Below are positions 7,608-26,483 of a stretch of DNA of 40,634 nucleotides, one piece after another. Each line of letters starts with the position of its first letter. The stretch's first letter is position 1. Made by a program: the position numbers and the translations under genes. The DNA lies in the IMG/VR virus record IMGVR_UViG_3300045885_000100, positions 1 to 40,634 of that record. One strand, 5' to 3'. The stretch is from a virus. A model generated the notes under the pieces. That model saw only the letters and a list, made by a program, of their open reading frames with translations, was not told where the DNA came from and did not search any database.

Positions 7608-8368
7608 CAGATCCTCTGCGCCGCGATCCGATCGCTCGTCGCGCGCACGCCCGGCACGTTCATCGAATCCTTCAGCGAGCGCGCGAGGCCGTTGAGCGTG
7701 ACCATGTTCGCCGTCACCATCGTGATGGGCTGCTCGCCCTTCGCGACGGCGCGAACGAGCGCCATGAGGTCGACGACCTCGGCCTTCCACTGGTCGCGGA
7801 AGCTCACGCCGGCGGCCGCGGGCTTCGGCGCTGGTGGCGGCGCCGGCACGAAGACAGGGCGCGGCGCGACGGTCGGCACCTCGACGGGCGCTTCGATGAG
7901 GCGCGTCGCGGTCTCCGTATCGCCGCGCTGCTCGGCAGCCGCGGCCTCGGCGAGCCGACGGTCCTCAGCCTCCTTCTTCAGGCGCGCCTGCTCGGCCTCG
8001 GCGCGCTCCCGCTCCTCGCGCTCCAGGCGCTCGCGCTCACGACGGGCGCGCTCCTCTTCCTCGCGACGGATGCGCTGCTGTTCCTGCTCGTACGCGCCCA
8101 TCGCGCGCGAATACGTACGGTCGGCCTCGAGGAAGGGCTTGCGGAGCTCCTCGCGCTTGCCGGTCGCCGTCTTCCAGGTGCGGTAGGCGTCGGAGCAGAT
8201 CGGCTCCATCACCTCGTCGATCTTCACGAGCCGGCGCTTGATCTCCGCGCGGTCGGCGGCGGCCGCCTCGAAGCTCGCCTGATCGGTGATCGCGATGAGC
8301 GGGATCTTCTGTGCGATCGCCGCGGCCTGAGTCTCCAGCTCCTGGGTGGCGACGGTGGTGTCGGTCAC
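7607..8368 (-). CDS. Coiled-coil protein of the recombination cluster
   Basis: 253 residues from GTG 8368 (GTGA overlap, GGAG upstream). Residues 30-90 form helices (IKRRLVKIDEVMEPI), 92-150 are a highly charged Arg/Glu coiled coil, 158-188 are Pro/Ala/Val rich, and 190-253 are a compact C-terminal domain (FRDQWKAEVVDLMALV). The layout resembles DUF1351-like phage proteins that travel with annealing proteins, but I cannot confirm the family. It likely assists the ERF/exonuclease pair or binds DNA ends. Confidence 0.65.
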   Translation of the reverse strand: MTDTTVATQELETQAAAIAQKIPLIAITDQASFEAAAADRAEIKRRLVKIDEVMEPICSDAYRTWKTATGKREELRKPFLEADRTYSRAMGAYEQEQQRIRREEEERARRERERLEREERERAEAEQARLKKEAEDRRLAEAAAAEQRGDTETATRLIEAPVEVPTVAPRPVFVPAPPPAPKPAAAGVSFRDQWKAEVVDLMALVRAVAKGEQPITMVTANMVTLNGLARSLKDSMNVPGVRATSDRIAAQRI

Positions 8369-10119: not shown

Positions 10120-10319
10120 CGGTAGCGCTCGTAGCCGTCCTGCTCGGCGTCGTAGCGCGCGTTGTCCTCGATCGCCCGGTTCTCATCGCGGAGCTCGCGG
10201 TGGCACCGCTGGGCGCCGCACACCCAGACCTTGCGGTAGCCGATCTCGTCCCAGTCCTCGGTCTCGGCGCCGCAGTTGAAGCACTGCGCGGGCCCGCTCG
10301 GCGGATCGTTGTACGCCAT
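10116..10319 (-). CDS. Zinc-ribbon microprotein
   Basis: 67 residues, ATG 10319 in a TGATG overlap. C13-x2-C16 and C34-x4-C39-H40 (CFNCG and CGAQRCH) form one likely zinc site; the C-terminus is charged and Tyr rich (EQDGYERYR). It is the first of five consecutive small zinc proteins read upstream from erf. Function unknown. Confidence 0.65.
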   Translation of the reverse strand: MAYNDPPSGPAQCFNCGAETEDWDEIGYRKVWVCGAQRCHRELRDENRAIEDNARYDAEQDGYERYR

Positions 10320-10534
10320 CAGAACGGGATCTCGTCGACGAGCGGCTCGGGGCACGCGAGCTCCGGTCCGTGCTCGCCCTTCGGCAAGCCACAGCCGTTG
10401 CAGCGCGTCGCGTCGATGGTGATGCGGCGCGTGCCGCCCGAGGCGTTCCACGCGAAGAACCTGGCGCGCTCGGACCAGGTGTATCCGGTCGGAGGCTCGA
10501 CGTGCGCTTGGTTGACCGCCGTCCGGCAGCTCAC
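10319..10534 (-). CDS. Zinc-binding microprotein
   Basis: 71 residues from GTG 10534 (GTGA). A strand-rich first half (GYTWSERARFFAW) is followed by CNGCG (C45-x2-C48), H55 and C61, a plausible single zinc site. It ends LVDEIPF, an acidic tail like those of some single-strand binding proteins, though no OB fold can be seen. Function unknown. Confidence 0.6.
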   Translation of the reverse strand: MSCRTAVNQAHVEPPTGYTWSERARFFAWNASGGTRRITIDATRCNGCGLPKGEHGPELACPEPLVDEIPF

Positions 10535-10680
10535 GCGCGCCCCTTCACCGGCCGCTCGGCGAGCCGGGGCAGGACCACGTAGGGGACGCGCGCCTTGCAG
10601 TACGGACACTCCGCGACCTTCCGCTCGGCGTCGTAGGGATACAGCGTTCCGCACGCGGCGCAGTGGAGCCAGTCCTCCAT
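10531..10680 (-). CDS. Zinc-ribbon microprotein
   Basis: 49 residues. ATG 10680 follows GGGGAGG by eight bases, the best ribosome site in this stretch. C7-x2-C10 and C25-x2-C28 (CAACG and CPYCK) make a classical zinc ribbon, followed by a short strand and basic tail (ERPVKGRA). Function unknown; likely nucleic-acid or protein binding. Confidence 0.7.
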   Translation of the reverse strand: MEDWLHCAACGTLYPYDAERKVAECPYCKARVPYVVLPRLAERPVKGRA

Positions 10681-10685
10681 GGCAT

Positions 10686-10763
10686 TTACCTCCCCAGGGG
10701 CCGCGCGAACGCCTTGAGCGCGTCCCGATAGCGTCGTTCGTAGACGGCGGCGGTCAGGGTCAC
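10686..10763 (-). CDS. 25-residue putative microprotein
   Basis: GTG 10763 overlaps the upstream stop as GTGA and encodes 25 residues (MTLTAAVYERRYRDALKAF, then ARPLGR). Its last codons contain the GGGGAGG that serves the next gene. It may be a short coupling ORF with no protein function. Weakly supported. Confidence 0.4.
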   Translation of the reverse strand: MTLTAAVYERRYRDALKAFARPLGR

Positions 10764-10876
10764 GAGCCCCTCTTCGGGAAGTGGATCGCCCGGCAGCGCC
10801 CGCAGATGCCGTGGGACGTGGGTTCGTCGCCCTCACGGAGGACCTGCGAGCACCAGGCGCAGACCAGGCGGATCAC
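10760..10876 (-). CDS. Zinc-ribbon microprotein
   Basis: 38 residues from GTG 10876 (GTGA). It consists almost only of a zinc ribbon, C6-x2-C9 (CAWCS) and C25-x2-C28 (CGRC), with a short basic tail. Overlapping stops and starts on both sides support it. Function unknown. Confidence 0.6.
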   Translation of the reverse strand: MIRLVCAWCSQVLREGDEPTSHGICGRCRAIHFPKRGS

Positions 10877-11016
10877 GCCGCCCTCCCGATCCACCGCGCG
10901 AGCAGGTGCCACGACCGCGACGAGCACGAGGGGCAGCGGCCAGCGCTCAGGTCGAACACGCAGTCGCAGTCCAGACAGAGCGCGAGACGGCCGAGCGGGA
11001 GCGCGGCGGCGGTCAC
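10873..11016 (-). CDS. Zinc-ribbon microprotein
   Basis: 47 residues from GTG 11016 (GTGA). C14-x2-C17 (CLDCDCVF) and C28-x2-C31 (CPSC) form a zinc ribbon, followed by an amphipathic helix (SWHLLARWIGRAA). Function unknown. Confidence 0.6.
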   Translation of the reverse strand: MTAAALPLGRLALCLDCDCVFDLSAGRCPSCSSRSWHLLARWIGRAA

Positions 11017-11186
11017 TCGCCGTTCTCCGGGTGATGGCGGCCGAGCACGAGGTCGGTCATCTTGAGCCGGATCTCGTCGAGCATCGCGTGACGGACCTCT
11101 GGCCCGGCAAGCCGGAGCTTGATCGCGTCGAGCCACGAGAGCCGGACGGCGATGGCGACGCGGATCTCAACGTCTTCGCGCGCCAT
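11013..11186 (-). CDS. Small hypothetical early protein
   Basis: 57 residues, ATG 11186 in a TGATG overlap with the membrane microprotein. It starts MAREDVEIRVAIAVRLSWLD; strand followed by helices. No family recognised. Confidence 0.6.
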   Translation of the reverse strand: MAREDVEIRVAIAVRLSWLDAIKLRLAGPEVRHAMLDEIRLKMTDLVLGRHHPENGE

Positions 11187-11323
11187 CACGCGCCCACCAG
11201 CGCCGCGACCAGGCACACCACCGCGAGGAACACCGCGCCGCCGAGCAGGTCGAGGAGGTGGCTCGTCACCGTCTCGTGTCCGACGGTGTCTGACGCGGCG
11301 GCGGACATTGTCTGACGCGTCAT
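11186..11323 (-). CDS. 45-residue single-span membrane microprotein
   Basis: ATG 11323 overlaps the RHH gene stop as ATGA. The first 22 residues are polar (MTRQTMSAAASDTVGHETV) and residues about 23-44 are hydrophobic (LLDLLGGAVFLAVVCLVAAL), one membrane helix ending at the C-terminus. Being third in the early operon, it would be made early after infection. Early membrane peptides of phages often affect host membrane functions or exclude other phages; here that is only inference. Confidence 0.6.
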   Translation of the reverse strand: MTRQTMSAAASDTVGHETVTSHLLDLLGGAVFLAVVCLVAALVGA

Positions 11324-11529
11324 GCGCCTGTCGCCTCGTCGAGCACGCGCGCTTCCCGTACCTTGCGACCGATGAGAGCGCAGCGACGAAAGAACCGCGA
11401 CTCCTCCTCACCGGCCCGGCGCGCGGCGTCCTGCCAGTCGCGACGCTCGGTGCTCGTGAGGCGCACGGTGAGGCGCTCGTCGCGGGACTCCATCGGGCCG
11501 AGCGGCTTGCGGGCTGGCTCGGGTGGCAT
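11320..11529 (-). CDS. Ribbon-helix-helix-like regulator
   Basis: 69 residues, ATG 11529 in a TGATG overlap with the HTH gene. The segment DERLTVRLTSTERRDW followed by AARRAGEEESRFFRRCAL has the strand-helix-helix form of Arc/CopG or MobC-like DNA-binding proteins. Its position directly after the Cro-like gene suggests a second early regulator. The family assignment is by pattern only. Confidence 0.6.
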   Translation of the reverse strand: MPPEPARKPLGPMESRDERLTVRLTSTERRDWQDAARRAGEEESRFFRRCALIGRKVREARVLDEATGA

Positions 11530-11753
11530 CAGGCGCTCTTTCTTCCTTCGGATCGCGCGACGAGACGTTCCGCGCGGGCGAGCAGCTTTGCGGAGTCACG
11601 GTCGCCACGCACGACGCGCGAGAGGTGGCCCTGGTTCGTACGCAGTCGGCGCGCGAGCTCGTTCTGCGACCAGCCCAGGGCCCGAGCGCGGGCCACCACG
11701 GCCAGCCATCGGGTTTGCGTGATCGCCGCGGGGGCGGTTACTGTTGCGTGCAT
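11529..11753 (-). CDS. Cro-like helix-turn-helix regulator
   Basis: 74 residues from ATG 11753. Residues about 16-62 form an HTH_3 domain: WLAVVARARALGWSQNELA, then RRLRTNQGHLSRVVRGDRD with the recognition helix in NQGHLSRVV. It is the first gene of the leftward early operon and is divergent from the plus-strand island, the classical place of cro. It probably binds the repeats in 11742-11792 and controls the lytic or lysogenic choice. Confidence 0.8.
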   Translation of the reverse strand: MHATVTAPAAITQTRWLAVVARARALGWSQNELARRLRTNQGHLSRVVRGDRDSAKLLARAERLVARSEGRKSA

Positions 11754-11792
11754 TGTTGCGTCAGGCTACGTCACTGACTGCAACGGACGCAA
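11742..11792. promoter_or_regulatory. Divergent switch region with operator-like repeats
   Basis: TGTTGCGT occurs at 11742-11749 and again at 11754-11761, twelve bases apart. GACGCAA at 11786-11792 is the inverse of TTGCGTC at 11756-11762. GTTGCGTCA (11755-11763) and TGACTGCAAC (11775-11784) form an inverted repeat with one extra base. These lie between two divergent genes and are likely binding sites for the Cro-like protein or the repressor. Clear -35/-10 boxes are not visible. Confidence 0.6.
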
Positions 11793-11805
11793 GCGAAAAC
11801 TTGCT

Positions 11806-12357
11806 GTGAGTGCAAAGGGTCGGAAGATCAGCCGAAAAGCTTACCGGGTCCCCTGGGAGGACGCGGCGAGACTACTTGGCGGCGAGGCAAAGTTGCTGGA
11901 ACGGCTGTCGTCGGCGTCCGATCGAACGCGCTATCGCCAGCAGGGCGTGCCCATCCAGGAGATCGGCGCGGAGATCCACGCGGCGTGGGCCGGGCGGGCT
12001 GCCGACGCGCCGTTGCAGTCAGCGCAAGCAACGCCCCGCGAGCCGTGGCTCAACAAGGAGTGGCAGGAGACGCACTCATTCACGGCGCTGATCGAAGCGC
12101 TCAGGGAGCTGGATCGGCTCGCGCTGAACAGTCCACGCGCATGGCAGGCGCGCGCCGCGTGGGAAGCCGTGGTGGGGGTGTCAGAGCTTGTCCGTCGGAT
12201 CTCCGGCTGGACGGATCATCGATGGGAAGCGATCTATCACGCGGGCCTCGACCACTGGCTACGCCCGAAGTATGGGAAACGAACCGAGGCGAAGATGCTG
12301 CGCGCTCGGTTCAGTCGGCAGCTCCGGCTGCTCGACCAGCCGGAGGACGATCCGTGA
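11806..12357 (+). CDS. Putative regulator heading the lysogeny-side operon
   Basis: 183 residues if GTG 11806 is the start; other starts upstream would enter the operator repeats. The N-terminal part is basic (SAKGRKISRKAYRVPWEDA) and then AARLLGG and SDRTRYRQQGVPIQEIGAEI resemble a YdaS/Cro-like helix-turn-helix, in which a G-V-P-I turn precedes the last helix. The rest is helical and Trp rich. By position, opposite the Cro-like gene, it would be the repressor, but no known CI domain or peptidase domain is visible. Confidence 0.55.
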   Translation: MSAKGRKISRKAYRVPWEDAARLLGGEAKLLERLSSASDRTRYRQQGVPIQEIGAEIHAAWAGRAADAPLQSAQATPREPWLNKEWQETHSFTALIEALRELDRLALNSPRAWQARAAWEAVVGVSELVRRISGWTDHRWEAIYHAGLDHWLRPKYGKRTEAKMLRARFSRQLRLLDQPEDDP

Positions 12358-14265: not shown

Positions 14266-14281
14266 GCCTAGGTGCCTAGGT
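14266..14281. repeat. Tandem 8-mer GCCTAGGT at a gene junction
   Basis: GCCTAGGT occurs at 14266-14273 and again directly at 14274-14281. Each copy contains the palindrome CCTAGG. The second copy includes the TAG stop of the 111-residue gene. It could be a slippage duplication or a paired binding site. Confidence 0.6.
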
Positions 14282-14611
14282 CGCCTTGCGGAGCGACCAG
14301 TTGATCGTGCGGTTGGTGCCCGAGATCTTCCGGAGCGAGAACTCCCAGCCGTCGCCGAGGATGAATGCCGGGCTGATGAACGACTTGGCGTCGACCGTCA
14401 GGTAGCCGAGGACCTGGGAGAACTCGACGGCGTTGACCTTCTCGTAGAGCTTGACCTCGAACACGTCGCCGGCCGCGATGGACGTGTCGCCGCACCAGAG
14501 CTGCACCATCGCGTCATCGGTCTGCGAAGTCTTGGTGGTGCTGTCCGACGCCAGGAAGTATTCCGTGGTGGTGATCGACGCGCTATCGGTCTCCGTGAAG
14601 TCGAAGGCCAT
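14276..14611 (-). CDS. Hypothetical structural protein
   Basis: 111 residues; ATG 14611 has GGAGG upstream. Strand-rich sequence (MVQLWCGDTSIAAGDVFEV, SFISPAFILGDGWEFSL) ending NWSLRKAT. It resembles small phage tail or fibre accessory proteins in composition. No family recognised. Confidence 0.6.
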   Translation of the reverse strand: MAFDFTETDSASITTTEYFLASDSTTKTSQTDDAMVQLWCGDTSIAAGDVFEVKLYEKVNAVEFSQVLGYLTVDAKSFISPAFILGDGWEFSLRKISGTNRTINWSLRKAT

Positions 14612-14620
14612 CGGTCCTCC

Positions 14621-15472
14621 TTACCCTCCGATCCCGATCGCGACCGCGTCGTATCCGCTATCCGGCGCGTTCTCGCAGCGGCCGCGCACCCACATCTCCG
14701 TCCCGGCCGGGATCTCGTGGTAGCCCTCATGCCAGACGAGCTGCGAGTCCATCATGTCCCCGATCTGCTCCGTCGCCGTCCCGGCGTGCCCGCGCCGCAG
14801 GAGCACGCGCTGGCTGCCTGATCCCCCAGCGCCGAGTTCGATCCAGCACCGCTCGGCCGTGATCGTGCCGCCGGTGATCTGATAGGCGAGCTGCCAGTAC
14901 CAGAGGAACTTGGCTGTGGTCCCCAGGCTCACCCAGGTCCCATCGCTGACGTTCCCCGGCGTGAAGCTGACGCCGCTGGAATTGGTGATGGTCCCCAGCG
15001 TCTCCGAGACCGTGCCCACCGGGAGTGTATGGCGACGGCCGAGCTGGCCGTAGCCCTTGAGGCAGACGTTCACGGTTCCGGCCGTCGCGTTCGCGCCCTG
15101 GATGCGGACGCCGACCGTGGCCCCGGCCGGGACGAAGTACGGGAAGAAAAAGCGGTGCGCGCCGCCAGCCGTCAGCGAGCCGGACGCCCCGCAGACGATG
15201 TTACTGATTTCGGCCGTGAAGGACGTGCCACCGGCTCGGTCGATGCCGATGTCGAGCAGGTGCGGTTTGCTCGCCGTCGTCGCGCCCCCGTCAGAGACAC
15301 GCAGGTAGATCCCCGCAAGGTCCTGCGTCGGGGAGAGCAGCGCGGCCGAGTAGCTCCCCTCGGCGTTGGACGCTCCAGGCGTGACGGCCGTGCCTGGCGT
15401 AGCCGACGGGTTCGCGCCCCAGTTGTCGATCTGGTAGAGCGCCTCGGCCGAGGGGGTATAGAGCGGCGCCAC
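14621..15472 (-). CDS. Hypothetical beta-rich structural protein
   Basis: 283 residues from GTG 15472, three bases after the upstream stop. Gly, Thr, Ala and Ser rich with many predicted strands (RFFFPYFVPAGATVGVRI, KFLWYWQLAYQITGG, RCWIELGAGGSGSQ). The composition suits a beta-sandwich or jelly-roll virion protein. No catalytic motif is visible. Confidence 0.6.
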   Translation of the reverse strand: MAPLYTPSAEALYQIDNWGANPSATPGTAVTPGASNAEGSYSAALLSPTQDLAGIYLRVSDGGATTASKPHLLDIGIDRAGGTSFTAEISNIVCGASGSLTAGGAHRFFFPYFVPAGATVGVRIQGANATAGTVNVCLKGYGQLGRRHTLPVGTVSETLGTITNSSGVSFTPGNVSDGTWVSLGTTAKFLWYWQLAYQITGGTITAERCWIELGAGGSGSQRVLLRRGHAGTATEQIGDMMDSQLVWHEGYHEIPAGTEMWVRGRCENAPDSGYDAVAIGIGG

Positions 15473-15475
15473 GGT

Positions 15476-15925
15476 CTACGCGCTCGCGAGCTTCAGCACG
15501 CCGCCGTTCGCCGGCGTCGCCCACTGCACGGTGATCGGGCTGCCGTTGGTCGGCGTGTCGGCGAGGTCGTAGAACGCGATGAGCGGCGCGGTGGTGTCCG
15601 TCCCGGTGTGCCGAAAGAGGACCGCGCCGCCGATCGTCTCGCCCGTGGCAAGAGCGCCGAACGGCACGTCGTCGGCGTCCAGATACGCGACGTCGTTCGT
15701 GTCGTCGCGGGTGACGGCTTCGCTCGCGAGCGCCTGGCGCGCGTAGCCGCCGACGGTGAGCTCGTGGCTCGCGGGGTCGTTCGCCGAGCCGTCGTCGACC
15801 GTCAGGTGATCCTTGTTGAAGGTGTAGCTGCTCTTGACGAGCAGGAGGCGCAGGTCGCTCGCGTCGAGATCCGTCGTCGCCTTCGCGAGCTCCTCGAGGC
15901 CCTTGTTGTACACGCCGTTCGCCAT
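15476..15925 (-). CDS. Conserved phage structural protein
   Basis: 149 residues; ATG 15925 has a G-rich ribosome site. The start MANGVYNKGLEELAKATTDL and the segment VKSSYTFNKDHLTVDDGSA match a type of protein seen repeatedly beside phage tail fibre genes. The end (ITVQWATPANGGVLKL) is strand rich. Probably a virion or fibre-associated protein; the exact role is unknown. Confidence 0.6.
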   Translation of the reverse strand: MANGVYNKGLEELAKATTDLDASDLRLLLVKSSYTFNKDHLTVDDGSANDPASHELTVGGYARQALASEAVTRDDTNDVAYLDADDVPFGALATGETIGGAVLFRHTGTDTTAPLIAFYDLADTPTNGSPITVQWATPANGGVLKLASA

Positions 15926-17498: not shown

Positions 17499-20400
17499 CT
17501 ATGACGTCGCCGGGATGCAGAGGTAGTAGTGAATGGCGATGCGGACGCGGCCTGTTGCCGCGCCCGGCGTGGTACTCGGCGTGATCCGGATGTTCGTCAC
17601 CGCGGCGAAGTACAGGGGCCCCGCCTTGGTCCCCGGCGAGCTCGTGCCGAGCGTGGTGGACAGGTCGTCGACGAACTGGTTCGGCGTGCCCGAGGTGCCC
17701 ACGTCGTAGGTCGTGGCCGTCGGGATGGCGACCTGGGTGTAGGCGCTGACCGCGAGCACGATAGCGTTCGCGGGGATCTGGATGGTGCTGTCGCTGGTCG
17801 CGGCCGCCGCGATCGTCACCAGCTCGGTGAGCGTGCGGATCTCGAGCGCCTGGCCCTGCGCCCCGTTCGTCGACAGCCGGATCGGATAGTTGCCGTCCTG
17901 CTGGATCGTGAGGCCAATGCTGTCCGTTGCCCCCGCCTTGATGGCCTTGTTCGTGAGGGTGAACGCGCCGTCGGCGGTGCGGATGGCCTGGAACGCGGGG
18001 TTCGTGCTGGCGCCGTCCCACATCTGCGCCTCGAACCCAGCGCGTGCGCTCGGCGAGGCCGCGTTGTAGGCGTTGTCGATGCGGACGAACGAGTCCGCGT
18101 TCTGGCTCTTGAGGACGTGCACGGTCGCGCTGGCGTCGCCGCTGGTGCCGAGCGCCAGGTAGCCGTTGCTGCCCATGATCCGCGCCCGCTCCGTGCGCGT
18201 GGCCGCCGTGATCGTCGACAGGACGATGTCGCCGTCCTCGGCTCCGGCGGTGTTCGTCCGGATGCGCGCGGCAATGTAAGCGTATTCCTGTTTGGCCGTG
18301 AGCCCGCCCGAGTCCGCCAGACGTAGCGAGATGCCGGCCTGGTGCCCCGCCGTGTTATCGAGCCGCGTGACGTTCAGAACGCCGAAGGTGGTGCCGCTCG
18401 TGGAGTCGGCCTCGAAGTCCGCCGCGACGGCCGTGCTGCCCACGTAGAAGCTGCTCGAGCTGAAGGTCTTGGGCGTCAGGTTGCCGCTCGACGGCCCGAT
18501 CCCCAGCCGGCCGAGCACCCACGAGGCCCCGCCACCCGAGAGCCGTGACTGCTCGACGGCCGAGGCGTCGAACACGGAGACCACGCCGACATCCGAGCCC
18601 GAGCTGCCGAGCTCGACGAGCGGCGTCTGCGCGGTGAACTGGACGACGCGCAGGCCGTGCGCGGCCGCCGACACGGCCTTGATAGTCATGGCCGCCGCCG
18701 TGCCCGCCGCGTCGTCCGTCGCCGTGTTCACGAGGAACCGGCCAGGCGCCGTGATCCTGGCGGCCTCCGTCCGGCTCCCGGCGTTGGTGACCGCGAACAC
18801 GAGGTCGCCATCCTCGCTCAGGGCCGTGGCCGTCCGCAGCCGTGCGCCGATGAACGCGAGCTCCTTGATGGCTGGCGTGCTGTTGTTCATCCGGAAGGCC
18901 ACGCCGACGTAGCGGCCGGCGGTGTTGTCGTTCCGGTCGACGCGCAGCGGATCGACGATGGAGGTGGCGGCCTCCGCGCTCGAGATGATCGCCGCGTTGA
19001 CGCCCGTGGAGTGCGCGTGCAGGGCGGCCAGCGGGGCCGTGATGCCAGCGCCGAGGAAGCCCTGCGTCCCGCCCGCGGCGGTCACGAACGACACGCGCTC
19101 GGTCAGGCCGTGATCGAGCAGCGCGAGCCGTCCAGCGGCCGGCACACCGATCGCCGCGAACCCCGAGCCGCCCGTCTCCTCGAACTTGATCTCACACGTT
19201 GCCCCGGCCGCGCCCTTGATGTGGACGGCGTGCGTGGGATCGGTCGGCGCCTGCACGCCCGTCCCGAACCCGAGGCCCAGACCAGCGTTCGTCACGCTGG
19301 CGCGGATTCGGCGCGTGGTGCTTGCGTCGGTCAGGCCGATCAGGTAGTCCCCAGCGACCGAGCCTGCCGTGGCCGTCCGCAGTCGAGCCGCCGAGTATGC
19401 GACCTCGACGCGAGCGGGCGAGCCGGCGTCATCCTGAAGAACCCACTGAATCCCGGCGCTGCGGCCTACCGTGTTCGTGAGGCGCGAGATCCGCAGGACC
19501 GCGAGCGCAGACGTAGCGGCCTCGTCCGTCTCGATGGTCATCGCGCGGCCGCTTGAGAGAACGCCCGCCGTGCTGTTCTTCACATAGAGCACGTCCAAGC
19601 CGCTGGGTGTCGGGCTGGAGCCGAGGCCGATCCCTACGACGTGGTTCCCCCCCGTGCTGCCGGCGTAGATCGCGGCCCCGCCGATGCCCGCGAAGATCCG
19701 CGTGGCGAACCAGCCCGCCGTGTCGCCCACGTCGAGGAAGTCGTTGCCGCCAGAGTTGGTGAGCTTCGCGATGTTCCGCTGCGCGACGCCGCCGAGCAGC
19801 GTCTGCGTCTTGACCTGATCGAACACGGCGGTGCCGATGGTCTGCGTCGTGGTGCCGTCGGCCTCGACGGCGAACACCACGGCCCCGTCCTCGTCGAGCA
19901 CCTCGAACACGTTGGCCGTCTGGCCCGTCGCCGCCCGGATCGACAGGCCGCGACGATCAGCGGACAGCGTCTGGATGTACTCCGTGTAGCCAGCGAAGAT
20001 CCGATGGCCCGCGAGGTAGCTGTCGAGCTGGCGCACCGCGCGCGTGTAGATGTCGCGGATGTCGACATCGCCGGGCGAGAGCTCGGGCAGGCCGAGCTCC
20101 GTGGTGAAGTCCACCGCCACGAGGTACGGGAACGGGCTGCCCAGCGCTTTCAGTCCCGTGTAGGCGCCCGAGAGCGTGAAGTGCGTGTCATCGACCACGG
20201 CCGCGATCGGGAAGAACACCGCCTCGCCCTGGAACTTAAAGACGTGACGGCCGGCCCACGCCCCGGTGATCCCGCCGTTGGTCAGCTCCACGTTCGCCGT
20301 CGGGTAACGGTTGGTGACGGGTTCCTGCTGACCCAGCCCCGTGTCCGCGACGTTGTAGCTGAAGCCATCCGTGGTGGTGTTGTCGGTGATGGTGCCCACG

Positions 20401-20693
20401 AGGAACTTCGGGCCGGTGGGGTCGCCCACCTTACTGGCGTAGATCCGGCGCCGCGTGCAGTCCGCCGGACCTAGCGGGATGTCGTCGAGGGTGATCTCCT
20501 TGGCGCTCGTCGCGACGGTGACCAGCACCTCGGCCCCGCACAGCGTCTCGCCGCCGGACGAATGGACGAACGTGACGGCGACCTCATGGTCACCCACGTC
20601 CACGTTGCCCGCGCCCGCCTCTGATGATGTGGGCGCCGTGTTCGGAGGTGCCAGCGCCGAGACCTTCGCATTGCCCTCGAAGTATTGGCTCAC
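17499..20693 (-). CDS. Large tail fibre with three homologous modules
   Basis: 1064 residues from GTG 20693 (GTGA overlap with the lyase-like gene). The N-terminus (30-130) has a fibronectin-like pattern found in phage fibres: VDVGDHEVAVTFVHSSGGET, IPLGPADCTRRRIYAS, LVGTITDNTT. Three related modules occur at about 397-471, 581-655 and 771-848, sharing [LV]-x-N-T-x-G-x-x-x-G, A-A-R-[LI]-R-T, G-D-x-x and R-x-x-A-[RS]. The C-terminal 110 residues are strand rich. It probably forms a trimeric receptor-binding fibre. No endosialidase-type chaperone cut site is obvious. Confidence 0.8.
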   Translation of the reverse strand: MSQYFEGNAKVSALAPPNTAPTSSEAGAGNVDVGDHEVAVTFVHSSGGETLCGAEVLVTVATSAKEITLDDIPLGPADCTRRRIYASKVGDPTGPKFLVGTITDNTTTDGFSYNVADTGLGQQEPVTNRYPTANVELTNGGITGAWAGRHVFKFQGEAVFFPIAAVVDDTHFTLSGAYTGLKALGSPFPYLVAVDFTTELGLPELSPGDVDIRDIYTRAVRQLDSYLAGHRIFAGYTEYIQTLSADRRGLSIRAATGQTANVFEVLDEDGAVVFAVEADGTTTQTIGTAVFDQVKTQTLLGGVAQRNIAKLTNSGGNDFLDVGDTAGWFATRIFAGIGGAAIYAGSTGGNHVVGIGLGSSPTPSGLDVLYVKNSTAGVLSSGRAMTIETDEAATSALAVLRISRLTNTVGRSAGIQWVLQDDAGSPARVEVAYSAARLRTATAGSVAGDYLIGLTDASTTRRIRASVTNAGLGLGFGTGVQAPTDPTHAVHIKGAAGATCEIKFEETGGSGFAAIGVPAAGRLALLDHGLTERVSFVTAAGGTQGFLGAGITAPLAALHAHSTGVNAAIISSAEAATSIVDPLRVDRNDNTAGRYVGVAFRMNNSTPAIKELAFIGARLRTATALSEDGDLVFAVTNAGSRTEAARITAPGRFLVNTATDDAAGTAAAMTIKAVSAAAHGLRVVQFTAQTPLVELGSSGSDVGVVSVFDASAVEQSRLSGGGASWVLGRLGIGPSSGNLTPKTFSSSSFYVGSTAVAADFEADSTSGTTFGVLNVTRLDNTAGHQAGISLRLADSGGLTAKQEYAYIAARIRTNTAGAEDGDIVLSTITAATRTERARIMGSNGYLALGTSGDASATVHVLKSQNADSFVRIDNAYNAASPSARAGFEAQMWDGASTNPAFQAIRTADGAFTLTNKAIKAGATDSIGLTIQQDGNYPIRLSTNGAQGQALEIRTLTELVTIAAAATSDSTIQIPANAIVLAVSAYTQVAIPTATTYDVGTSGTPNQFVDDLSTTLGTSSPGTKAGPLYFAAVTNIRITPSTTPGAATGRVRIAIHYYLCIPATS
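18150..19505 (-). repeat. Three divergent copies of a 75-residue fibre module
   Basis: The copies lie at about 19281-19505, 18729-18953 and 18150-18383. Key positions shared are NT-x-G-x-x-x-G-[IV], [EV]-x-A-[YF]-x-[AG]-A-R-[LI]-R-T, GD followed by hydrophobics, and [TS]-R-x-x-[AR]-[RA]. Protein similarity is clear but the DNA has diverged, so the duplications are old. Confidence 0.7.
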
Positions 20694-21751
20694 GCGGTCC
20701 TCCGAAACAATTCGCTCACGATCTCGTTGACGAGCTGCTGGTCGGTCGCGTCGAGGCCCGCTGGGTTGTTCCGGGTCGGGAACCGTGGCCCCACGAACGC
20801 GATGATGTAGCGGATGAGCTCGGCAGGGTCATCGTCCTCACTGATGGCCGGGACGCCCGTGCCCTGCGGCGATCCATCGTTCCCGCTCGCGTCCACGTCC
20901 CAGTTGGCAAGGTTGAAGTTGCCGTCAGCGTAGACGTGCGTGCGCTTGTCGGCGGGGAGCGGGAAGCCATCGTTCGGCTCTGCGATCAGCGTCTGGTAGT
21001 CATCGCCTGAGTCCGTCGCATAGCCATAGTTCTTCACGAAGTTGGCCCGTGCGCCCTTCTGGAAGTAGGTGCCAACGCCCTTCTTCCAGCCCCACACCAC
21101 GTTGTTCCTGTAGTCGAGCGTGAGCTCGCCAGCCGGGACGGCGCCGCCCGCATCGTCTTCCTTGACCTGCGGGTTGCGCGAGAGCGAGCCGTGAAACAAG
21201 TTGTGGTGCAGCGTGACGTTCCTGACGTGGTACGCAATCAGGCTGTTCTTCACGAGCTGGCCCTTGCCGAAGATCGACCAGCAGACCGTGATGTCGTGCG
21301 AGCTCGTCGCCGGCACGAGCGCGTTGCCGCTGATGTCGAGGTTGCCGTCGGCGCTGTTGAACGCCGAGCAGTTGGCGATGACGACATCGTGCACGCCGTC
21401 GAAAAGCTGGAACCCGTCGATGGTGGAATTGCGAATCCGCAGGCCCCGGATGATCCAGTCGTGGCAGGCGTGCGTGACATCGCCGCGCAGGCTGATCTCC
21501 CTGTTCCAGAGCGTGATCCCTGGCGCGGGCGCGGTGTGTCCATTGATCGTGACGTTGGCCCCGAACCCGAACAGGTGGTCCTCGAGGAAGATGTCGCCCG
21601 CCACGTCGAACACGATCTGGCGGTTGCCCGCGCTCATCGCCTCGCGCAGCGATCCGGCGCCCGAGTCGTTGAGGTTCTCGACGTGCACGACGGCCTGGCC
21701 GTCGCCGCCCGCCGTCGCCTGCCCGTAGCCCTCGAACAGGAACTGGCCCAC
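20690..21751 (-). CDS. Pectate-lyase-like (PL1-type) beta-helix depolymerase
   Basis: 353 residues from GTG 21751, one base after the upstream stop. The chain matches the right-handed beta-helix of polysaccharide lyase family 1: NLNDSGAGSLREAM, IVFDVAGDIFLED, NVTINGHTAPAPGITL, IIRGLRIRNS, DITVCWSIFG, VTLHHNLFHGSLSRNPQV and LDYRNNVVWGW. The Arg in SRNPQV corresponds by pattern to the catalytic Arg of the family, and DGNLDIS may bind calcium. PL1 enzymes cleave uronic-acid polymers by beta-elimination. Lying between tip and fibre genes, it is probably a virion depolymerase acting on host capsule or slime. There is no signal peptide, as expected for a virion protein. Confidence 0.8.
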   Translation of the reverse strand: MGQFLFEGYGQATAGGDGQAVVHVENLNDSGAGSLREAMSAGNRQIVFDVAGDIFLEDHLFGFGANVTINGHTAPAPGITLWNREISLRGDVTHACHDWIIRGLRIRNSTIDGFQLFDGVHDVVIANCSAFNSADGNLDISGNALVPATSSHDITVCWSIFGKGQLVKNSLIAYHVRNVTLHHNLFHGSLSRNPQVKEDDAGGAVPAGELTLDYRNNVVWGWKKGVGTYFQKGARANFVKNYGYATDSGDDYQTLIAEPNDGFPLPADKRTHVYADGNFNLANWDVDASGNDGSPQGTGVPAISEDDDPAELIRYIIAFVGPRFPTRNNPAGLDATDQQLVNEIVSELFRRTA

Positions 21752-21752
21752 G

Positions 21753-22103
21753 TCAGTCGTCCTCGCTCGGCACGTCGACCCAGTCGGGGAGCATGATGCC
21801 GCCGGAGCGCACCACGAGGAACGGCTCGCCGTCGAAGGTCACGCGGCTGCCCTGGATCGTGATGACCGGACGCCCTGATGTCTGGCCCGACAGCACGGCG
21901 CGGGCGCGAGCCTCAAGCCGCAGGTGCAGCCGGTCGCCCGCCGCCTTCGTGCAGATGTAGACACGGTCGTCGTTGTCATCGCGCAGCGACTCCGCGAACG
22001 GGCAATGGTCCGGCGGCATCGCCTCGGCGTTGCCCCAGACGTTGCTTCCGTGCAGGTGCCACTGGCCGTCGTCCTCGCGCTTGAACTGCAGATGTCCCCA
22101 CAT
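21753..22103 (-). CDS. Hypothetical tail-associated protein
   Basis: 116 residues from ATG 22103, seven bases after the gpJ-like stop. Strand rich (WGHLQFKREDDGQWHLHG, DRLHLRLEARARAVL, SRVTFDGEPFLVVRSGG) with an acidic end (DVPSEDD). It sits between the tip protein and the lyase and may join them or decorate the tip. No family recognised. Confidence 0.6.
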   Translation of the reverse strand: MWGHLQFKREDDGQWHLHGSNVWGNAEAMPPDHCPFAESLRDDNDDRVYICTKAAGDRLHLRLEARARAVLSGQTSGRPVITIQGSRVTFDGEPFLVVRSGGIMLPDWVDVPSEDD

Positions 22104-22109
22104 GGCCGG

Positions 22110-25100
22110 TCACCAATACTTGAACGTGAGCGTGCCAATCGGCAGCGTGCTGCCGCCGAGCGGGATCACCCGCACCACGAACGAGGTCTCGTCCGCCGCA
22201 TACAGATACGTCGTGACCTCTGGCCCGCCGGCAGGCGTCCACATCCACGTCACCAGCGGCGTGATCCCCATGCCGTGATTGAACGTGATATGCACTGAGC
22301 CCGAGACGAACACCGAGGCGACGTTGACACCCTGGCGCTTATCGGAGCTGATCGCGCCAGACGTGACCTTCTGGCCGTTCACGGAGAGGTTCTTGATCTT
22401 CGCGGTGTCCACGGAGAGATCCCTGATGTGCGCGGTGTCGATCTCCGCGAACCCGATCTTGGCGCTGGTGATCGAGGCGTCCTCGATCTGCGCCGTGCCG
22501 ATGGCGGCCGCCGCGATCTTCGCCCGCGTGATCTCCGCGTCGAGGATCTTCGCCCGCGTGATCGAGGCGTCCTGAATCTTGGCGGTGGTGATCGTCGCGT
22601 CGTTGATGTGCGCGGTAGTGATGATCCCGTTATTGATCTGCGCCGTGCCCGTAATCAGCGCCTGATTCGTGATGAGCTGGGCCGCGCCAATCGTATGGGC
22701 CAAGATGTCGGAGCCGTGCACCGTCGCCTTGCCGTTCGTCACCACCAAGTTCAACCCGCCGTTGTACACCGCGAGGATCACGCGGTTCACCACGATGCTC
22801 GTGGCGGGATCAGGGATGGCGTCGAGCGTCGTCTCACCGATCAGCCAGGAGATGAACAACGACGTGGTCGTGAAGTGCCCGCTGCCCGATGAGATGTCGC
22901 GCTCCAGCAGCTCGCCCTCGGTGTTCACGTAGAGAATCCGGCCCGCCGTCCACGACACCGTGTTCGTGGTCGGGTCCGCCGTGAACGTGATGTCCTCGAC
23001 GGTGATGTCTGTGCGGAAGAACTGGTACACCTCGGCCGCGCTCTTCGGCACCACCTCGACGATCTGCGAGCCGATGCCGTCACCGAACGCATCCACCGGC
23101 ATGATCTGCAGGAAATACGTGATCCCGTGCGTGAGGTTCGGGATGATGACGGTTTTCTGGACGGCTGACCGCTCGTCGAACTGCTCGAGCGGTGGGTTGG
23201 CCGTCGAGAGCAGCACGCGGTAGCTCTGGAAGTCGTGGTCCGTCGGGTTGAACGCCGTCCAGTCCGCGACGGCGGCGTCCACCAGCGCCGTCACCACGGG
23301 CGCGATCTCGCTCATGTCCGGCGCTTCATTCGACACGACGAGCACGGCCGGCTCGATGGACACGGCGCCGTCGTGGCTGCGCGCCCAGACGCGGATCTCG
23401 ATCTGACGCTGCGGCGCGAGCGGCTTGTGGTCCTCGACGTTCATCTCGTAGGTGTAGTTGAAGCCGGGCGTGGTGACGTAGATCGGGAACCGGCGCTTGA
23501 CGCCGCTCGTCCAGATCTCGACGACGTAGTCGCGGATGCTCGCGTCCTGCGTGAAGTCGTCCTCGGCGTCGCCGCTGCCGGGGTTCAGCGTCACCGCGTT
23601 CCAGACGAATTTGGCGTCGCGCCCCGCGAACACGGTGTCGTTCGGATTGCCGGTGACAGGGTTGGCGAGGCGCAACCCCGTGACGCGCGGCGGCCCGAGT
23701 CGCGGCACCTGCTGGCCGATGGTGGCCGCATAGCCGAACGGCGTGGCGATCAGGTTGTAGGACGTGACGAGCGGCGGGTTCGGGATCTCCATGCCCGCGA
23801 TGAACACCCAGTTGCTCGGCCGCCCCACCGCCGACACGACGCGCACGCGGAGGTCGTAGACCTTCCCCGGATCGAGCGGGGCGAACACCATCTCCTGCAC
23901 GTCGGCCGACACCTCGGGCATGACCGTCCACGGCACCGCCGCGCCGTTGAACCGGAACCCGCCCTGGACCTTCGCGCCCGCGAGCGGCACCACGCCCTGC
24001 GGGATGCGATAGTGCAGCGTCGCCTTCGCCCCAATGGTGCCGGTGGCCGTCCGGAACGCCGCCACGCCCTCGCTCACGAGGCCGTCGGGGATCGGGTCGG
24101 GCGGCTGCCGCAGCTCCGGTGGCAATGTGATATGTGGGTCGTAGGGCGGTACGGTGCCCGAGTCCGCGTCATAGACCTGGGGCGAGTAGTCAACGGCCAC
24201 GATGCGCGCGGACAGATCGCGGAGCATCTCGATCCGGATGATGAGCAGGTCCACCGTCTCGTTGCCGAGCGTCCCGAACGTGAACAGATCGCCTGCGGCC
24301 GGGACGCTGCCCGCCGCCACTGGCGCCGTGAACGTCAGCGAGCTCTGCGTGCCCACCACCGTCACGACCTGCGCGCTGGCGATCACGCCGTCCGACCGCC
24401 GCCACTTCAGCCCGTAGCTCGACGCTTCCATCGGGACGGGCTCGTCGAGCGTGACGCTGACGGCCTGGCTCGAGCCGTTCAGCGTGACCGTCTTGATGCG
24501 CCCCGCCGTGATGCCGAACAGCGGCACGTCATGGTTGAACTGGATGCGGTCGCCGCGCGTGTTCGCGAGGTGCTCGAAGTCGCACTCGAACTCGTGGATG
24601 TCCGGCCGGAGATACGCCGCCGCGAGGTGGTAGCGCGCGAGCTTCCAGACTTGGTCCGGGTCGGTGACGCCGACGAACTGCAGACTCTCAAACTTCGTCG
24701 CGTTCCCCGCGTGGTAGCCGTCCCAGTAGACGAGGCGCTCCTCCATCTGCCACGTCAGGTCGGACACGAACTGCGCCTTGAGCGCGTGCGGTAGATCGCG
24801 GAACGCCCTGGTGCCGCGATAGTTGCGGCTGTTCCTCGGGGTGTAGAGTCCAGCCGGCGACGCCTGCGGGATGTCGCGGATCACGCCAAAGGTGCCGTCA
24901 ATCGTGCCGAGGGTCGCGCGGCCGACCGCACACACCTGATCGAGCACCTGCTTGACGGTGGCGGTCTGCTCCACCACGAAGTCGAACCGCCTGATCTCGG
25001 TGACGCAGTCGCTATGCCACGCCTCCAGCGCCGCCAGATCAATCCTCGCGTCCGCGAGCGGACGCGCCATCTGCGGCCCTTGCAGGACGTGGCGATAGAG

Positions 25101-26483
25101 CGAGGCGGGGTTCCGGGTCGCTCGCGTCACCCAGGTATCGGTGCCGCTGTCGTAGTCAGGGACGATGGACGTGGCGACGCACGAGAGCTGATCGATGACC
25201 CCGTTGAGCCGGTCGGACGCCTTGACGCGGATGGCGATGCGCGCGAGGCCGACGGCCAGGATGGCCGCTGAGATGGGGTCGCTGTTCGTGATGCTCCGGA
25301 TCGCGGTCCATTGCGCGGCGTTGATGAACGGCGCGTTCGTCGGGCCGTTGACTTCGAGATGCGCGTCCGTCTGAACCACGCGCACGTCGTACTGACCGCG
25401 CGCGACGGTCCAGCGGACACCCTGCCGATAGGTGGTGGCCACGGCTGCGGAGAACGCCGTGCTGTTCGGAATCAGCGTGAATGGATCGCCGCTGCCCGTC
25501 AGGCGATAGCTCACCACGAGCGTCGCTGGCATCGGGATCTTATTGCCGTTCGGGGTGAACGCGACTAACCCCCTCGGCCAGACGAAGTCCAGGCTGATCT
25601 CATCGATGTCCGGCTGCGTCGTCCGGATATGCGCGGAGCCGTCAATCAGGTTGATGGCCCCGCTGCCGCCGCCCGGAGCTTCCTCGACCACGTTGTTCGT
25701 GAACAGCGTGAGCGGCGGGTCCGCTGGATCACCGACGCGGACCTCGACCTCGATCTCCCCGAAGTCCGCGATGGCCGTCTCACCGATCTTGATGTCTTCG
25801 ATGTCGTACTTACCGAGGCCGACGACGAAGAGGCAGCGCAGATACTGGTCGTTGCCGACGATCTCCGTGTAGGGCAGCGCCCCGAACGGCGGGAAGATCC
25901 GATGGCGACCGAGAATGAACGGCACGGGGCCGTAGGGGTTCGCCTGGTTCCGCTGGCCCGTGATGGCGTACACCGGGAGATCGAGCGGCCCGCCGTCGCC
26001 ACGGGACAGTCGCGCCTGCGGCGGTGGCATCAGGAGCGACACCACGCCGCTGATGATCATGCCGATGCCCATCGTGAGGACGTAGGGCGCGAACGCGCGC
26101 AGCACGGGCACGAAGAACATCACGATGCCGATGATCGTGATCACCACGCCGAGGAGCGTCTGCAGCCACCCCTTGCCGCCCCCGCCGCTACTGCCCGCCG
26201 GCCGCGCCCGCACCACGACGTAGTGGCCCCGTCTCGGCCGCACCCGTGGCCACCATTCACGCGGCACGACCGAGCCGTCGATGGACACGAGGGCGTCGGT
26301 CCATTCCTTGAGCTCGGCGCGCTCCACGATCTCCGCGAGCGTCGCACCCTCGGCCACGAGGAAGTCATGGCGCTCGAGCGTGAACGGGTTCCGCAGGACG
26401 CGCACGCGCACGAGGCCGACGAGCTGCTCGACCTCGTCCACGATCTCGCCCTCGAGGACGCGCACCGCCAGGTCAGTCGTCAT
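22110..26483 (-). CDS. gpJ-like tail tip / central fibre protein
   Basis: 1457 residues from ATG 26483 (ATGA overlap). Residues 1-95 form a small ubiquitin-like domain ending WWPRVRPRRGHYVVVRARP; a Gly linker and two hydrophobic segments follow (107-124 and 131-151), the layout of lambda gpI-like proteins, fused here to the J-type body. The body has the pattern DLPVYAITGQRNQANPYGPV of the tip-attachment family, then fibronectin-like domains in the second half. Residues 1294-1373 are eight 10-residue repeats (xDAxITxAKI). The last 84 residues form a beta domain (SVHITFNHGMGITPLVTW) like fibre tips. It forms the tail tip and contacts the receptor and host membrane. Confidence 0.9.
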   Translation of the reverse strand: MTTDLAVRVLEGEIVDEVEQLVGLVRVRVLRNPFTLERHDFLVAEGATLAEIVERAELKEWTDALVSIDGSVVPREWWPRVRPRRGHYVVVRARPAGSSGGGGKGWLQTLLGVVITIIGIVMFFVPVLRAFAPYVLTMGIGMIISGVVSLLMPPPQARLSRGDGGPLDLPVYAITGQRNQANPYGPVPFILGRHRIFPPFGALPYTEIVGNDQYLRCLFVVGLGKYDIEDIKIGETAIADFGEIEVEVRVGDPADPPLTLFTNNVVEEAPGGGSGAINLIDGSAHIRTTQPDIDEISLDFVWPRGLVAFTPNGNKIPMPATLVVSYRLTGSGDPFTLIPNSTAFSAAVATTYRQGVRWTVARGQYDVRVVQTDAHLEVNGPTNAPFINAAQWTAIRSITNSDPISAAILAVGLARIAIRVKASDRLNGVIDQLSCVATSIVPDYDSGTDTWVTRATRNPASLYRHVLQGPQMARPLADARIDLAALEAWHSDCVTEIRRFDFVVEQTATVKQVLDQVCAVGRATLGTIDGTFGVIRDIPQASPAGLYTPRNSRNYRGTRAFRDLPHALKAQFVSDLTWQMEERLVYWDGYHAGNATKFESLQFVGVTDPDQVWKLARYHLAAAYLRPDIHEFECDFEHLANTRGDRIQFNHDVPLFGITAGRIKTVTLNGSSQAVSVTLDEPVPMEASSYGLKWRRSDGVIASAQVVTVVGTQSSLTFTAPVAAGSVPAAGDLFTFGTLGNETVDLLIIRIEMLRDLSARIVAVDYSPQVYDADSGTVPPYDPHITLPPELRQPPDPIPDGLVSEGVAAFRTATGTIGAKATLHYRIPQGVVPLAGAKVQGGFRFNGAAVPWTVMPEVSADVQEMVFAPLDPGKVYDLRVRVVSAVGRPSNWVFIAGMEIPNPPLVTSYNLIATPFGYAATIGQQVPRLGPPRVTGLRLANPVTGNPNDTVFAGRDAKFVWNAVTLNPGSGDAEDDFTQDASIRDYVVEIWTSGVKRRFPIYVTTPGFNYTYEMNVEDHKPLAPQRQIEIRVWARSHDGAVSIEPAVLVVSNEAPDMSEIAPVVTALVDAAVADWTAFNPTDHDFQSYRVLLSTANPPLEQFDERSAVQKTVIIPNLTHGITYFLQIMPVDAFGDGIGSQIVEVVPKSAAEVYQFFRTDITVEDITFTADPTTNTVSWTAGRILYVNTEGELLERDISSGSGHFTTTSLFISWLIGETTLDAIPDPATSIVVNRVILAVYNGGLNLVVTNGKATVHGSDILAHTIGAAQLITNQALITGTAQINNGIITTAHINDATITTAKIQDASITRAKILDAEITRAKIAAAAIGTAQIEDASITSAKIGFAEIDTAHIRDLSVDTAKIKNLSVNGQKVTSGAISSDKRQGVNVASVFVSGSVHITFNHGMGITPLVTWMWTPAGGPEVTTYLYAADETSFVVRVIPLGGSTLPIGTLTFKYW
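22365..22604 (-). repeat. Eight 30-base repeats coding for decapeptides in gpJ
   Basis: Eight units of ten residues, such as NDATITTAKI, QDASITRAKI, LDAEITRAKI, AAAAIGTAQI and EDASITSAKI. Isoleucine or valine recurs every five residues. This pattern suits a left-handed beta-helix or triple-stranded stalk. Copy number could change by slippage. Confidence 0.8.

Follow-up and report, generated by a model that had tools for sequence, protein, structure and literature searches.

The window, the whole stretch of DNA analysed (40.6 kb, viral), carries its genes mostly on one strand. It harbors the gene set of a temperate siphophage, comprising a large terminase, a major head protein, a TipJ/J-type protein and tail proteins, besides an integrase, an Erf annealing protein, an exonuclease and a primase. 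It is a soil-type bacterial virus, a temperate siphophage-like contig. A preliminary description had located a pectate-lyase-type gene between the tail tip and a large fibre. The tail operon has this order, with a TipJ-type tip, the small ORF p116, the lyase and a 1064-aa fibre (Table 1). The three motifs quoted for the lyase were all found, HTAPAPGITL at residues 72-81, LHHNLF at residues 181-186 and SRNPQV at residues 191-196.

Table 1. Tail genes around the lyase and codons at its active site, in window positions.
Feature	Position	Strand	Remarks
TipJ / central tail fibre J-type host-specificity protein	22110..26483	-	1457 aa; phrog_31 E=3.5e-99; NF040662 E=4e-49, above cut-off
p116, possible adaptor	21753..22103	-	116-aa ORF; upstream of and translationally coupled to the lyase
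Single-domain PL1-type polysaccharide lyase	20690..21751	-	353 aa, GTG start; orthologue in L109
Large tail fibre	17499..20693	-	1064 aa; start overlaps lyase stop; 65% identical in L109
Asp112 codon, putative Ca2+/substrate-binding acidic residue	21416..21418	-	D or E in 60/66 relatives
Ala126-Asn127 codons, at Asp-His of vWiDH motif	21371..21376	-	D in 65/66 rows, H in 59/66 rows
Asp135 codon, putative Ca2+ ligand	21347..21349	-	D in 62/66 relatives
Asp139 codon, putative Ca2+ ligand	21335..21337	-	D (one E) in nearest 12 rows; Asp in 3zsc
Lys168 codon, putative substrate-binding Lys	21248..21250	-	K in nearest 7 rows; Lys in 3zsc
Arg192 codon, PL1 catalytic-base position	21176..21178	-	R in 66/66 relatives

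The GTG of the lyase is located one base past the TGA of p116; at the other end of the gene, stop codon and fibre start share the tetranucleotide GTGA. A strong codon-position bias (GC1/2/3 = 0.62/0.43/0.91), together with the orthologue and the fold, ruled out a chance ORF. A missed upstream start or N-terminal domain was also ruled out. A stop codon and no in-frame start occur upstream of the GTG, and the lyase of the sister phage L109 (IMG/VR 3300045941_000080) shares the start, M-G-Q-[FY]. The longer mechanical ORF in L109 (471 aa) runs, over its initial 108 residues, across the p116 and 65-aa frames. An ATG overlapping the preceding stop aligns with residue 1 of the window lyase.

The protein is a single-domain member of polysaccharide lyase family 1 (PL1). 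As single sequence, it matched PHROG 27797 'pectate lyase' (E=4e-20) and PDB 9buj (PfPL1; E=1e-7). A match to NCBIfam PelZ (E=1e-17) was far under the equivalog cut-off of the model. The alignment to the PHROG profile sets in only at position 227 (of 657), indicating an N-terminal extension in the other phage members. Pfam PF00544 gave no match to the window lyase and matched 17 of its 66 relatives. A PDB search with a profile of the 66 relatives yielded PL1 proteins only: 9buj (2.5e-86), 6fi2 (4e-30) and 3zsc (1e-14), besides 1pxz and 1vbl. The single-sequence search of viral contigs resulted in no match, and relatives were found via alignments. Plasmid searches with the lyase retrieved distant cellular homologues only.

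The AlphaFold2 model is a right-handed parallel beta-helix (pLDDT 89.8, pTM 0.92), the fold that had been expected. In a Foldseek comparison with the PDB, ranks 1 to 24 were all PL1 proteins, with PfPL1 9buj (TM 0.72) first, VexL 6fi2 (TM 0.66) second and PelC also among the matches. The tailspike of HK620 was a weak fold match only (TM 0.35, E 0.019). The best match is thus an enzyme family and not a non-enzymatic fibre. Beta-elimination of a uronan would be the predicted activity.

PfPL1, VexL and PelC share with the window lyase the beta-helix and the invariant catalytic arginine in the RxP motif. Arg192 aligns with the arginine of this motif, SRTPR in 9buj and QRMPR in 3zsc, and Asp112 with an aspartate in both structures. 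Asp135, Asp139 and Lys168 likewise have aligned counterparts in 3zsc. The window and L109 have in common Arg192, Asp112, Asp135, Asp139 and Lys168, and also the SRNPQVKEDDAGGAVPAGELTLD stretch in full. By sequence alignment, and not by superposition, the corresponding residues of PelC are presumably the Ca2+ ligands D131, E166 and D170, further K190 and R218. On the same basis, Lys197 is taken to occupy the position of PelC R223. The vWiDH motif is altered in the window copy alone, in which AN replaces DH, while L109 keeps DH. This pair lies outside the catalytic positions, and the remaining PL1 traits are present. An arginine at position 195 is lacking in the window lyase. Arginine pairs 15 residues apart were sought in the published PfPL1 construct for the placement of the second catalytic arginine (Arg235), and none was found. 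PfPL1 belongs to PL1 subfamily 2, and VexL is a Vi-antigen depolymerase of PL1 subfamily 13; both have been described as needing no catalytic metal (PMC11229556). The window lyase differs from both, with Asp112, Asp135, Asp139 and a lysine at +5 from Arg192 in a PelC-like arrangement, so the phage clade looks more PelC-like.

Residue 7 marks the beginning of the lyase core, and neither end of the protein bears an extra domain. The absence of a virion-binding (head-binding) domain, as stated in the preliminary description, was confirmed by this core and by the start conserved in L109. The lack of a signal peptide was confirmed as well: the best 11-residue Kyte-Doolittle mean was 0.45, versus 2.2-2.9 in the cellular relatives tested. 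A C-terminal trimerisation or chaperone domain is absent. The protein ends in a helical tail at the same place as cellular PL1 relatives, without the long C-terminal adornment of PfPL1, and is probably compact and monomeric. Tailspike depolymerases, such as the spikes of HK620 and of Klebsiella and Acinetobacter phages, are likewise beta-helix enzymes for the crossing of a polysaccharide layer. Unlike the window lyase, they are trimeric and carry an N-terminal anchor and a C-terminal domain (PMC5380687). The location in the tail module is a trait of tailspike-type depolymerases that the lyase gene shares.

The order tip-p116-lyase-fibre is kept in L109, with two extra small ORFs within the stretch. 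Identities between both phages amount to 73% for the lyase, 60% for the tip and 65% for the fibre. The p116 homologue in L109 is located upstream of the lyase, has equal length and is 38% identical. Purifying selection acts on the lyase. Among the four genes in common it is best conserved, with the lowest dN/dS (about 0.24), followed by the fibre (0.38), the tip (0.44) and p116 (0.77). Family searches including PHROG assigned p116 to no recognised family, and its structure prediction was poor (pLDDT 44). Neither p116 nor the fibre had a match among 50,697 phage records.

A genome from the phylum of Candidatus Methylomirabilis (G087) contains a related prophage, on a contig of which one flank bears a serine recombinase and genes of bacterial appearance. 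The prophage tip is 35% identical to the window tip over 218 residues, and its fibre is 44% identical over 280 residues, the N-terminal 280 aa of the window fibre. In the prophage, the tip and fibre genes overlap by 4 bp, and neither p116 nor a lyase lies between them. Across the three genomes compared, p116 and the lyase are jointly present or absent, being common to two. Since tip and fibre are directly adjacent in the prophage, lyase and p116 behave as a removable cassette. The prophage is also a weak hint that the hosts belong to Methylomirabilota or are close to this phylum. An Acidobacteriota relative of the tip (L126) has no lyase near the tip gene.

Anchor-less PL1 lyases occur also in other phage contigs, namely the podovirus ctVRi840 (L005; UOF81308), L021 and L026. 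Like the window lyase, these enzymes have a core close to the N-terminus (in their case after 9-18 residues at most) and no signal peptide, and the contigs bear clear phage genes. However, they represent other phage types, their lyases have longer C-termini, and the identity to the window lyase is 22-29%. The lyases of L021 and L026 are placed outside the clade of the window lyase, and the L021 lyase adjoins RNA polymerase and primase genes, sitting between both. The unfused form, set apart from most phage depolymerases in the preliminary description, is therefore a recurrent variant and not singular. Lyases of Cellulophaga phages (phi39:1 gp26, phi13:2 gp087 and phi13:1 gp024; phrog_27797) have a homologous PL1 domain and are encoded in the tail region as well. 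They differ by about 230-810 N-terminal residues ahead of the lyase domain and are 26-29% identical. Phi39:1 gp26 has been annotated as virion protein from MS/MS; it has about 250 extra N-terminal residues and is therefore no proof that a bare lyase attaches.

Several siphophage contigs (L015, L017, L019 and L020) present a fused counterpart of the window layout: a PL1 lyase, fused to about 260-330 N-terminal residues, follows a TipJ-type gene at a distance of a few kb. Three IMG/VR contigs (L010, L011 and L013) code for same-clade lyases of 943-1052 aa with an export-like N-terminus and Pro/Thr-rich linkers; by these features, they are classed as phage-encoded exported PL1 proteins. L012 was dropped as candidate for an anchor-less phage lyase, for its neighbours matched no phage family. 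Human-faecal 'phage' scaffolds (MT83xxxx) were also set aside. They are unannotated and unverified, several of their proteins have signal-like N-termini, and they are probably bacterial.

In a maximum-likelihood tree, the lyases of the window and L109 are part of a 12-row clade (support 100/99). This clade also holds the phage contigs L010 and L011, Candidatus Methylomirabilis, a Myxococcota MAG, a Parcubacteria MAG and Geothrix. Three of the cellular members (L029, L030 and L032) have an export-like N-terminus and surface-polysaccharide genes as neighbors. The lyase of L029 is accompanied by a family 2 glycosyltransferase, an APS kinase, an ATP sulfurylase and a sulfatase, that of L030 by a sulfotransferase and a group 1 glycosyltransferase. 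The L032 locus comprises Bac_transf, Polysacc_synt_2, a DegT aminotransferase, PGA_cap and a MurJ-type flippase. A surface-polysaccharide setting was not seen in the neighborhood of L031. VexL, the second-best fold match, depolymerizes an N-acetylgalacturonic acid capsule of bacteria (PMC11229556; PMC9597891). The exopolysaccharide (EPS) or capsule loci around the three cellular relatives examined and VexL favour host exopolysaccharide over plant pectin as substrate. The uronic-acid-containing host EPS suggested in the preliminary description is thus backed, independently but indirectly, by the gene neighborhoods of the nearest cellular relatives.

The lyase would cut a uronic-acid-containing surface polysaccharide of the host, exopolysaccharide or capsule, by beta-elimination. 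It may have descended from a secreted lyase of a bacterial exopolysaccharide locus with subsequent loss of the signal peptide. Together with p116, it may have entered the tail module as a cassette between the tip and fibre genes. Synthesis would occur late, alongside the tail proteins, and the enzyme would act extracellularly. Most likely, non-covalent contact with a partner (p116, tip or fibre) would hold it on the tail; an existence as free enzyme only is less likely. This account as a whole, with bacterial origin, cassette entry and a tail-borne lyase, is regarded as moderately probable. A catalytically dead PL1 fold, serving only as polysaccharide-binding receptor module, was considered, as the window copy has AN at the DH position and no arginine at position 195. 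However, the retention of the five active-site residues and SRNPQVKEDDAGGAVPAGELTLD in both phages and the purifying selection make it improbable. An auxiliary metabolic gene for the degradation of plant pectin on behalf of the host appears very improbable. It would fit the PL1 family, the pectate lyases reported among soil-virus carbohydrate-active genes (PMC6460857) and the activity of the closest solved enzyme, PfPL1, on pectin (PMC11229556). Yet the enzyme lacks the signal peptide that its use by a host cell still alive would require, the gene sits in a tail operon, and the nearest clade is found in EPS and capsule synthesis loci in the three cases examined, not in pectin-use loci.

Given an active enzyme, association with the virion is slightly favoured, while free release is held to be possible but less probable. 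The position in the tail operon, the coupling, the co-occurrence with p116 and, by analogy, the MS/MS annotation of phi39:1 gp26 would be in line with a virion role. Against an attachment to the tail, the lyase has no anchor, no trimerisation domain and no export signal, and p116 has no recognisable adaptor fold. The same enzyme might never enter the virion, and would then be a late, cytoplasmic, soluble EPS lyase set free by lysis, which helps the progeny through slime or biofilm. The missing signal peptide and anchor and the compact monomer-type fold agree with this possibility. Soluble lysis-released phage depolymerases are an accepted class (PMC5380687), an anchor-less phage PL1 can be encoded outside the structural module (L021), and other kinds of late genes can also occupy a tail operon. 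The tight coupling in a tip-fibre operon of two phages and the co-occurrence with p116 suggest instead a structural context, and a lyase confined to the lysate is considered a substantial but lesser prospect. A more specific version of tail carriage, in which p116 serves specifically to dock an unfused, monomeric EPS lyase of host origin on a siphophage tail tip, and lyases from bacterial EPS loci can be acquired and exchanged without domain fusion, is tentative and rather unlikely.

The lyase probably strips the sugar coat of the host, a modest variation on a known phage weapon. If it is active on EPS, the phage took a lyase type of bacterial EPS and capsule loci and put it into the tail module without fusion to another protein. 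Such a lyase, small and of one domain, would then also be of use against the polysaccharides of soil bacteria that have been little cultured. With the tip-p116-lyase-fibre cassette, the targeting by an unanchored depolymerase becomes directly testable.

Further observations concern other genes of both phages. Directly after the tip gene of L109, an ORF (7988-8347) starts with MLGRRSFLAGLAGLASLVTLP, which resembles a twin-arginine (Tat) or lipoprotein export signal within a tail module; it had no PHROG match. The C-terminal 165 residues of the window fibre match phrog_15388 (3e-12). The C-terminus of the fibre also matches weakly (0.015) the C-terminus of phrog_11548, a 'pectate lyase' family of phages, and the two may have a fibre tip domain in common. 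Three small genes after the fibre (14276-15925, minus strand) are 87-89% identical in L109, far above the tail genes, and one of them (15476-15925) matches phrog_644. Two long plus-strand ORFs at 10200-12357 show a weak codon bias. The ORF at 11119-12357 has a 31% match to a Methylomirabilota prophage contig (L124).
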